63,715 nt of DNA. It comes from an uncultured Candidatus Actinomarina sp. Its GTDB lineage: Bacteria; Actinomycetota; Acidimicrobiia; Actinomarinales; Actinomarinaceae. Under the pieces are notes generated by a model. It was given only the letters and a program-made list of their open reading frames with translations. It was not told the origin of the DNA and made no database searches. Position 1 is the stretch's first letter. Each line of letters opens with the position of its first letter. Where the stretch lies: positions 103,820 to 167,534 of the forward strand of contig CACDQN010000001.1 of the NCBI GenBank assembly GCA_902555055.1, written 5' to 3'. Below are positions 31,919 to 63,715 of the stretch, one piece after another. The translations under genes and the position numbers were made by a program.

Positions 31919-32010
31919 CGGAGGTGGACAGGAATCGAACCTGCCAAAGACTATTACACCTTTCAACAGTTTTGAAGACTGTGGAGCCCACCAGGCGCTC
32001 ATTCACCTCC
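31919..32010 (-). tRNA. selC: tRNA-Sec, anticodon TCA (UGA)
   Basis: Read on the minus strand from 32010, 92 bases fold into a selenocysteine tRNA. The acceptor stem starts GGAGGTG and closes with CACCTCC plus discriminator G (31919); an eighth pair would be A-C. The D arm has stem GAGC/GCTC, the anticodon stem ACAGT/ACTGT encloses CTTCAAA with TCA at 31975-31973, the long variable arm has AAAG/CTTT, and the T arm is GCAGG-TTCGATT-CCTGT. The following bases are CTA, so CCA is not fully encoded. The long extra arm and UCA anticodon separate it from tRNA-Ser. It reads the UGA found in selD. Confidence 0.93.
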
Positions 32011-59110: not shown

Positions 59111-59193
59111 ACAAAAAGATTAGCTATCGAATAGATTAAAGTTTTCTTTATCTATTAATTGAAAAAGAAAATAATCTTATTACCATATTATTT

Positions 59194-59289
59194 GCATAAA
59201 GAGAGGGAAACCTCAGCAACCTAGAATGCCAACTAAGGTGCTTTTTGATGTGGTTTTACAACAAAAAATGGTAGTTCCGAATCTTTAGC
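59194..59289 (+). ncRNA. SAM riboswitch (SAM-I/IV superfamily) before metK
   Basis: The conserved core GCAACC (59216-59221) and GGTGC (59237-59241) of SAM-I/SAM-IV aptamers is present. Helices: P1 TAAAGA (59197-59202) with TCTTTA (59282-59287); P2 GAGG-GAAA-CCTC (59203-59214); P3 GCAACC with GGTGC; a small hairpin GTT-TTAC-AAC; pseudoknot AACTA (59231-59235) with TAGTT (59272-59276). GATGTGG follows P3, as in the marine SAM-I/IV variant. Placed 14 bases before the metK ribosome site. Likely turns metK off when SAM is abundant. Confidence 0.88.
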
Positions 59290-60426: not shown

Positions 60427-60434
60427 TTTTGTAA

Positions 60435-60531
60435 GCATAAAGAGAAGGTTAAGACCTCGGCAACCTGGAAGACTATCCAAGGTGCCTGAAGATGTGGCAG
60501 AAATGCAACTAAATAGTCAAAGTCCTTCTCC
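60435..60531 (+). ncRNA. SAM riboswitch (SAM-I/IV superfamily) before metY
   Basis: Second copy of the same aptamer: GCAACC (60460-60465) and GGTGC (60481-60485), followed by the GATGTGG element at 60491-60497; P2 AGGT-TAAG-ACCT (60446-60457); a hairpin GCA-GAAA-TGC; pseudoknot GACTAT (60471-60476) with ATAGTC (60513-60518). It shares the leading GCATAAAGAGA with the metK copy. The 3' strand TTCTCC (60526-60531) can pair with the metY ribosome site GGAGAA (60540-60545), or instead with GAGAAGG (60442-60448). Control of translation start is therefore likely. Confidence 0.88.
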
Positions 60532-61830: not shown

Positions 61831-62893
61831 CTCTAATAAGTTTTTCATTCCACAATTTACACTTGAAACGGGTGAGATACTTAAAGAGGTTGAAATTGCC
61901 TACTCAACATATGGAGAATTATCAAAAGATGGAAAAAATGGTGTCTTAATCTTCCATGCTTTAACTGGAAGCCAATTGTTGTCGGGCAACTTTTCTAGTG
62001 AAGATTTTCCAAAAATTCCCTGGAATGAAGAACTAGAGACGGGTTGGTGGGATGAATTCGTTGGACCAAATAAAATAATTGATACCAACAAATACTTTGT
62101 TGTTTGTGCCAATTACTTGGGTGGGTGTTACGGCTCTACTGGTCCCAACTCTAAAAATTCAACTACAGGAGATATTTATGGATATGATTTTCCACATATT
62201 TCATTTAAAGATATTGAAGAATCGCAAAAATTACTCCTAGACGATATTGGAGTCACTCATTTAGAGGCTGTAATTGGCCCTTCTATTGGAGGGTTAATGG
62301 CTCTTGAGTTTTGTACTTTATATCCTGACTTTGTAAACAAGCTTATATCTATATCAAGTGGATATAAGCTATCTACTTTACAGCTTTTACATAATCTTGA
62401 GCAAGGATATATATTAGATCTAAGCAGGGATTCAAGAAATCGTCAGGATGAATATCTGTCTCTTGCGAGAATGATCGCTCATAAAACATATATTTCCTTG
62501 GAGTTGCTTTCTACAAGAGCTAAAAATAAAAGCTTATATAGTGAAGATACAGTTGAGGGGTTTTTAGCTACTTCACAGGAATCTTATATGATGCATCAAG
62601 GCGAAAAATTCATTGAGAGGTTTACTGCAGAATCATATAATTCAATAATTAAAGGCTGGCAAAATTTTAATTTAGAAATAGAAAGCATATACAACCTAAG
62701 AGATATTAAAACTTTAGTAATTTCTGTTGATTCAGATGTCTGTTTTTATCCTGAAGAGCAAAAAGAGTTTGTTGAAATTTTAAGAGAATATGATGTAAAA
62801 ACTGAATATAAAACTATTGAGTCTACAAAAGGTCATGATTGTTTTCTTCTAGAACCAGAATTATTCAAAAAAATAATTAAAAACTTCTTATAA
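61814..62893 (+). CDS. metX: homoserine O-acetyltransferase
   Basis: 359 residues from TTG 61814; an upstream ATG at 61772 would overlap metY by 59 bases and add residues without homology. Alpha/beta-hydrolase fold enzyme that activates homoserine for sulfur uptake. Marks: VEIAYSTYGEL near 24, VLIFHALTG near 44, NYLGGCYGSTGP near 100, the nucleophile S157 in GPSIGGLMALEF (usually GGSMGG), and late D and H in VISVDSDVCFYP near 300 and KGHDCFLLEP near 338. Acetyl and succinyl donors cannot be separated with certainty; partnership with metY favours acetyl. Confidence 0.9.
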   Translation: MKVQNSSNKFFIPQFTLETGEILKEVEIAYSTYGELSKDGKNGVLIFHALTGSQLLSGNFSSEDFPKIPWNEELETGWWDEFVGPNKIIDTNKYFVVCANYLGGCYGSTGPNSKNSTTGDIYGYDFPHISFKDIEESQKLLLDDIGVTHLEAVIGPSIGGLMALEFCTLYPDFVNKLISISSGYKLSTLQLLHNLEQGYILDLSRDSRNRQDEYLSLARMIAHKTYISLELLSTRAKNKSLYSEDTVEGFLATSQESYMMHQGEKFIERFTAESYNSIIKGWQNFNLEIESIYNLRDIKTLVISVDSDVCFYPEEQKEFVEILREYDVKTEYKTIESTKGHDCFLLEPELFKKIIKNFL

Positions 62894-62922
62894 ACTTCGC
62901 GAAAAATACATTAGTAAATGTC

Positions 62923-62951
62923 TTGCATAAGAACAAAAACTAACGTATATT
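62923..62951 (+). promoter_or_regulatory. sigma-70 type promoter upstream of the small RNA candidate
   Basis: -35 TTGCAT at 62923-62928, a 17-base spacer, and -10 TATATT at 62946-62951. Element match and ideal spacing suggest transcription from about 62957-62959. It lies 30 bases after metX. Confidence 0.5.
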
Positions 62952-62956
62952 TATAG

Positions 62957-63045
62957 AACACTATCGGAAAAGAAATCGAAAGATGGAAAAGAAGATAGAA
63001 TAAAAAATCCCGGAGGGTCGCAAGATCAACTGGGATTTTTGCTTT
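62957..63045 (+). ncRNA. candidate small structured RNA with repeated GGAAAAGAA internal loop
   Basis: From the predicted start to the terminator the sequence forms a symmetrical hairpin: CTATC (62961-62965), GGAAAAGAA (62966-62974), ATC-GAAA-GAT (62975-62984), GGAAAAGAA (62985-62993), GATAG (62994-62998). The two nine-base strands are identical and would face each other as a purine-rich internal loop, and the tip is a GNRA tetraloop. A terminator-like hairpin with a second GNRA loop follows. No coding frame longer than a few codons is present. I match it to no known RNA family. Confidence 0.5.
63003..63040 (+). terminator. intrinsic terminator-like hairpin
   Basis: AAAAATCCC (63003-63011) pairs with GGGATTTTT (63032-63040). 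The 20-base loop contains GGTC-GCAA-GATC (63016-63027), another GNRA hairpin. The U-run is part of the stem, as in bidirectional terminators. It ends the metX/small RNA region before the exonuclease gene. Confidence 0.6.
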
Positions 63046-63082
63046 CTATGATTAGTTGTAATTTTTAAATTAACATTTAATC

Positions 63083-63715
63083 ATGGATCTTTATATTGTT
63101 GATGGAACTTATGAATTATTTAGGGCCCACTTTGGATACCCAAGTAGAAAAAGTAATGAAGGGAAAGAAGTAGGTGCACTAAAAGGGTATATCAATCACC
63201 TACAGTCTCTTAGAAAAAACAATAATTATCTTTGCGTTTCATTCGATTCGACAGTTGAGTCTTTCAGAAACCAACTGTTTACTGAATACAAATCAAGTAA
63301 TCATATTGATCCTGAAATTCTTCAACAGTTTCCATTAGCTGAAGAGGTTACGGAATTACTTGGTATTACTCTCTTGTCGATGAAGGAGTATGAAGCTGAT
63401 GATGGAATAGCATCGGTCTGTTCGTTACTTGAAAGTGAGTTCAATAAAATAATTATTGGATCACTAGACAAAGATTTGATGCAGTGTGTAAAAAAAGACA
63501 AAATCATAATGTACTCAACGAGGTATAAAAATTTTACAAATGAAAATGGAGTATTTGAAAAGTTTGGTGTAAGCCCAGAACAAATACCGGATTTCCTTGC
63601 TTTAATTGGGGATTCATCAGATGGCATACCTGGCATGAAAGGAATAGGACAGAAAACTGCAGCGGAGCTTTTACAGAAATATAAAAACATAGAGGCAATT
63701 TATGAAAACATCGAA
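63083..63715 (+). CDS. 5'-3' exonuclease, PolA N-terminal type (3' end missing)
   Basis: ATG at 63083 and an open frame to the right edge, 211 residues visible. It starts MDLYIVDGTYELFRAHFG, with the first metal aspartate D7 and the R of FRAHF; then FDSTVESFRNQLFTEYKS near 54-71 (usually FD-x3-FR-x-xL...YK), YEADDGIAS near 103 with the acidic pair, GSLDKDLMQCV near 127, and the helix-3-turn DSSDGIPGMKGIGQKTAAELL near 177-197. This is the flap-endonuclease domain found at the start of DNA polymerase I or as a stand-alone protein. Which one applies is cut off by the edge. Confidence 0.88.
   Translation, partial: MDLYIVDGTYELFRAHFGYPSRKSNEGKEVGALKGYINHLQSLRKNNNYLCVSFDSTVESFRNQLFTEYKSSNHIDPEILQQFPLAEEVTELLGITLLSMKEYEADDGIASVCSLLESEFNKIIIGSLDKDLMQCVKKDKIIMYSTRYKNFTNENGVFEKFGVSPEQIPDFLALIGDSSDGIPGMKGIGQKTAAELLQKYKNIEAIYENIE

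Follow-up and report, generated by a model that had tools for sequence, protein, structure and literature searches.

What kind of element lies between metX and a 5'-3' exonuclease gene in this stretch of Candidatus Actinomarina DNA, where two identical purine-rich strands face each other inside one hairpin, and why would it be kept? The question is pressing in an organism reported to have 1 Mb genomes, 97% coding density, median intergenic spacers of 2-3 bp, and little regulation (PMC7771536). Against such spacers, 150 conserved non-coding bases present in several copies are costly to keep, and the reported streamlining makes a stronger case that they have been retained by selection (PMC7771536). 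Here "the window" denotes the whole stretch of 63,715 nucleotides that was analysed.

Positions 62892-63045 of the window are a self-contained small-RNA (sRNA) gene, a member of an uncatalogued, multi-copy Ca. Actinomarina sRNA family—the gene, its copies, its structure, its promoter, and a shared regulatory box were all established by computation. The conserved unit starts ~65 nt further upstream than the transcript originally proposed, at 62892, because it includes the promoter and the regulatory box. The box, the multi-copy family, and the shared regulon are new here; all were missed by the original prediction, which had been made from the letters of the window. The features of the locus are as follows.

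62896..62906, + strand: TTCGCGAAAAA regulatory box, a putative activator site; the best-conserved block outside the RNA in 81 copies
Ending 17 nt before the -35 element, + strand: box core TCGCGAAAA, also found at WhiB3-like and dnaA promoters
62923..62928, + strand: -35 element TTGCAT, with TTGC kept across copies
62946..62951, + strand: -10 element TATATT after a spacer of 17, with TAnnTT kept across copies
62960..63045, + strand: small RNA gene, type 1 copy; matched by covariance model R1 at 108.6 bits
62961..62998, + strand: hairpin 1 (fold; compensatory changes at columns 6-35 and 16-25)
62961-62965/62994-62998, + strand: hairpin 1 outer stem (fold)
62966-62974 and 62985-62993, + strand: hairpin 1 purine loop strands (fold)
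62975-62977/62982-62984, + strand: hairpin 1 inner stem (fold)
62978-62981, + strand: hairpin 1 GAAA tip (fold)
63003..63040, + strand: hairpin 2 and intrinsic terminator (fold; 100% of cells paired; double changes at columns 53-72, 54-71, and 59-66)
63003-63013/63030-63040, + strand: hairpin 2 stem of 11 bp (fold)
Tip 63016-63027, + strand: hairpin 2 AG/AA 2x2 loop, then a GGUC-GCAA-GAUC tip with an invariant G-U pair (fold)

The nested hairpin, CTATC-GGAAAAGAA-ATC-GAAA-GAT-GGAAAAGAA-GATAG, sits exactly at 62961-62998 and folds as it had been drawn. The minimum free energy (MFE) fold of 62957-63045 contains the claimed stems and the terminator hairpin (-26.2 kcal/mol, z -5.1), and hairpin 1 reaches a z of -4.2 when folded alone; the terminator with a second GNRA hairpin, also foreseen, is predicted with a GCAA tip. 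Only one place in the window has the 5-9-3-4-3-9-5 geometry with two identical strands of 9 nt, and 20 shuffled windows have none. Across copies the conserved core runs from ACUAUC to GCUUU (62960..63045), and the RNA start may lie 0-3 nt upstream of it. Comparison with the families of Rfam 15 returned no covariance-model match at gathering score—the best sub-threshold matches had E values of ~1 and above—in keeping with the earlier suspicion that no known RNA family has this arrangement, and a literature search found no paper describing an sRNA in Actinomarina.

The gene is widespread within its genus. We used 62880-63085 as the BLASTN query for the genus search and built a covariance model from 47 distinct copies; with this model the 86-nt sequence of window positions 62960-63045 was found 81 times, in 36 of the 42 Ca. 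Actinomarina genomes, at one to four copies per genome and usually two or three. All six genomes that gave no match are incomplete assemblies (51-87% complete), and at least one, G014, has a piece of the promoter cut at a contig end. Beyond the genus, the model found no convincing copy in ~350 other Acidimicrobiia (five weak terminator-like matches, E 0.001-0.01) and none in ~395 other Actinomycetota; the exact apex pattern, searched in 84,980 species, matched only in Actinomarina, OCS155, or Actinomycetota/Acidimicrobiia bins.

Two settings account for the loci described here, with neighbour-gene identities taken partly from translated ORFs read by eye and supported by Pfam for some. On the metX side, another clade has the gene flanked by metX and by the gene of a small membrane protein, after which comes tilS; the second locus comes after the gene of a 150-aa protein, divergent from a histidine-phosphatase-like gene, and here two same-direction copies often have variable cargo genes between them (cytochrome P450, acetyltransferase, lipoprotein). 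The direct sRNA pairs around cargo beside the phosphatase-like gene at L065, L069, L090, and L083 resemble a small gene-exchange hot spot. Genomes with at least two copies mostly hold one copy whose inner pair is A-U and one whose inner pair is G-C. Hairpin-2 haplotypes agree within a genome in 41 of 58 paralogue pairs, against a shuffle mean of 25, which suggests gene conversion or co-adaptation to one partner, or simply shared ancestry.

The copies also bear on coding capacity: across them, no reading frame common to the paralogue types was found, which speaks against a small coding gene or leader peptide. One G-C-type subtype (L061:3700-3921 and similar) has an ATG-initiated frame that runs through the RNA and beyond; this frame is probably due to chance, its downstream part seeming unconserved by eye in the few copies read.

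Selection on the structure is evident from the alignment of copies. Standard pairs occupy 99.0% of 1080 pair cells, and double changes occur at six pairs. In 500 shuffles the covariation score, the paired fraction, and the numbers of double changes never came up to the observed values; only the number of additional pair types is unexceptional against the shuffles (436/500). With a tree from which the tested columns had been left out, parsimony counts ~11 double changes that arose independently: columns 54-71 account for five, 16-25 and 6-35 for two each, and 53-72 and 59-66 for one each. The stems are conserved with covariation in relatives, as the original prediction anticipated, and losses of pairing are confined to columns 5-36 and 6-35, the inner end of the outer stem in hairpin 1. 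Every hairpin tip in the 81 copies is a GNRA tetraloop, and both hairpins share the tip UC-GNRA-GA. The hairpin-2 apex, ARGGUCGCAAGAUCAA, is near-invariant and its G-U pair invariant; this conservation exceeds the needs of a terminator. The linker between the hairpins—the sole long unpaired stretch—is variable.

The twin strands, which had been read as the essence of the design, hold up in part: purine-rich facing strands are conserved, but exact symmetry does not stand as a functional principle. The strands are identical (9/9) in only nine of the 81 copies, agree at 8/9 in 26, and at 3-7/9 in the rest. What the copies keep is instead a symmetric 9x9 loop rich in purines (on average 89% of the bases in its strands), and identical GGAAAAGAA strands are a special case of it, belonging to one paralogue type. 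Bases that face each other in the loop are most often G-A, A-G, or A-A; at columns 15-26, the innermost position, A-C and A-U lead instead. T substitutions are almost always opposite A. This pattern fits a stacked non-canonical helix, although it is not statistical proof of one because the A columns are nearly constant. Stacking of the loop is probably through tandem sheared G-A and A-A pairs; the tandem G-A pairs suggested earlier are plausible.

The predicted promoter with 17-base spacing, TTGCAT-17-TATATT at 62923-62951, was too weak for a generic consensus scan, which missed it, yet it is conserved across the copies (-35 TTGC, 17 nt, -10 TAnnTT)—a limit of consensus scans in this setting. 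Outside the RNA, conservation in the alignment of all copies is concentrated in this -35, this -10, and the TTCGCGAAAAA box. The box itself is invariant, and in 78 of the 81 copies 17 nt separate its core from the -35 TTG. With its own -35, -10, and box at several unrelated loci, the gene fits the description of the stand-alone, non-coding transcript of ~90 nt that had been proposed; neither a lack of conservation nor read-through from metX, the two outcomes that were to refute it, describes what was found.

The box reaches beyond the sRNA. Pattern searches in ten genomes, with site classes assigned by reading the surroundings, found the 10-mer TCGCGAAAAA to be rare: 40 exact sites, of which 23 belong to sRNA copies, 10 to a WhiB paralogue, 4 to the region upstream of dnaA, and 3 to coding sequence, so that 37 of 40 lie at sRNA, WhiB3-like, or dnaA promoters. 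A reversed control pattern occurs ~2 times per genome. The WhiB3-like promoter carries the box in 10 of 10 genomes, before the same paralogue each time, and its box core stands 7 nt above the -35, against 17 nt at the sRNA promoters, a shift towards the -35 of 10 bp or one helical turn. The encoded protein has M. tuberculosis WhiB3 as its best PDB match (E 3e-16) and also matches Pfam WhiB. At this gene (box G000:C8:29426-29435, L229, with nine orthologous sites) the ATG follows the putative -10 by a few bases, and the mRNA is possibly leaderless. A double box, CGCGAAAA-N12-CGCGAAAA with a 20-bp period, is present as a single site in each of 30 genomes out of 42 (L264-L293), with 0 control matches; it sits in the dnaA-rpmH intergenic region wherever dnaA is readable downstream, and the remainder share similar flanks. 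Because of its upstream position and helical phasing, we infer that the TTCGCGAAAAA box binds an activator, and it assigns the sRNA to the same regulon as dnaA and a WhiB3-like iron-sulphur regulator. Among the literature matches listed, none describes TTCGCGAA as an actinobacterial operator. That an sRNA family, a WhiB regulator, and dnaA have this box in common points to a replication-linked RNA regulon among the smallest free-living cells.

How might such an RNA work? A transcription factor on TTCGCGAAAAA would switch on the sigma-70-type promoter, and an RNA of ~86-90 nt would be made, ending at its own terminator and folding into two hairpins that are both capped by a UC-GNRA-GA tip, the first of them with its symmetric purine internal loop. 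The RNA would then act in trans as a regulatory RNA, presumably by binding or sequestering a protein. We regard it as fairly likely that the family is a box-activated, structured sRNA of the WhiB3/dnaA regulon that acts in trans, with protein binding favoured. Protein binding or sequestration is judged more likely than antisense pairing because the hairpin tips and loops are conserved while the one long unpaired linker varies, and also because Hfq was not found in 10 genomes and a limited antisense scan, of 57 window genes, was null.

Antisense pairing is how most terminator-ended bacterial sRNAs act, and it is the main competing account: the purine strands GAAAWGAA, two per RNA, would serve as seeds for U/C-rich mRNA stretches, and the hairpins mostly as scaffold and terminator. 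The energy model predicts the purine loops to be unpaired, and the first strand has A9, A10, A11, and A14 in 47 of 47 distinct sequences and G13 in 43; however, the second strand differs among paralogue types (5/9 letters alike in most G-C-type copies), the starts of the 57 window genes show no signal (mean z 0.24), and pairing has no need of a near-invariant hairpin-2 apex. Hfq was not found in the 10 genomes searched, nor CsrA in any of the 42, and we consider antisense action possible but rather unlikely. An Hfq-dependent antisense sRNA in particular does not fit the lack of an Hfq match in those 10 genomes or the variable inter-hairpin linker. The original prediction had also raised GGA motifs exposed to a protein, which in the CsrA sense would make the RNA a CsrB/RsmZ-like sponge. 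Both strands of the window copy do contain GGA, but 49 of the 81 copies have it in neither strand, and CsrA gave no match in the 42 genomes while control genomes did; the absence of CsrA and the loss of GGA exclude CsrA-type sequestration, and the chance that such a sponge explains the family is negligible.

If the copies were only regulated terminators or 3' UTR elements of the genes before them (metX; the 150-aa protein gene), they would be expected to start shortly after the stop codons of those genes and to finish with an intrinsic terminator, as they do. This reading is improbable, since the conserved -35, -10, and box are positioned for a start at hairpin 1, copies follow unrelated genes, and hairpin 1 and the GNRA apexes are kept beyond any terminator need. 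A small mobile, MITE-like repeat, spreading with its promoter and terminator and serving no cell function, would account for the multiple copies, for the two that flank variable cargo at one locus, and for the within-genome sharing of hairpin 2 by gene conversion, which may simply reflect ancestry. Yet copies occupy few conserved loci rather than being scattered, largely at orthologous positions across clades with constant copy number; each genome keeps two stable paralogue types, selection preserves the structure of the RNA, viral contigs gave 0 matches, and Actinomarina genomes reportedly contain no mobile elements (PMC7771536). We hold this reading to be slighter still.

Several known systems offer partial likenesses. 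Trans-acting sibling sRNAs are likewise intergenic, with a regulated sigma-70-type promoter, a length of 85-90 nt, a Rho-independent terminator, and several paralogues per genome; in contrast, the Actinomarina RNA has no exposed conserved seed, is genus-restricted, lacks a family match and a detected Hfq, and combines two identically tipped GNRA hairpins with a long symmetric purine internal loop. CsrB/CsrC/RsmX/Y/Z are also multi-copy small RNAs with repeated purine-rich hairpin motifs, whereas here the motifs lie in an internal loop, GGA is not conserved, and there is no CsrA. The Rsm RNAs under GacA have a palindromic upstream activating site, a likeness to the Actinomarina box. The RNA polymerase-binding 6S RNA and Ms1 share a hairpin with a central symmetric opening; the Actinomarina RNA is far shorter, has two independent hairpins, and lacks an Rfam match. 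The 6S RNA itself, a ~180-nt single hairpin with a central bubble, is ruled out by the 86-nt length, the two hairpins, and the lack of an RF00013 match. By description, Yfr103 of marine Synechococcus and Prochlorococcus is another multi-copy, structured ncRNA of unknown function in a marine picoplankter; its promoter has a conserved palindromic site ahead of the start, but the RNA is cyanobacterial and ~290-328 nt long against ~86 nt here (PMC5069720).

Building on the favoured protein-binding account, a bolder and distinctly doubtful version can be sketched: in the most streamlined marine Actinobacteria, a WhiB3-like redox/growth regulon marked by TTCGCGAAAAA might control replication initiation through dnaA, the WhiB3-like gene, and a dosage-amplified sRNA pair, whose RNAs would sequester or steer a protein through their twin GNRA tips and all-purine non-canonical helix—a non-Hfq, non-CsrA, cell-cycle-tied system. 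The covariance model and promoter motif can now be checked in ocean metatranscriptomes.

Other RNA features of the window deserve mention. Two SAM-I/IV riboswitches, at 59189-59278 (before metK) and 60430-60522 (before metY), as paired in that order, belong to the gene cluster whose last members are metX and the sRNA. A selenocysteine tRNA lies at 31920-32010 on the - strand, in a streamlined marine actinobacterium of 1 Mb.
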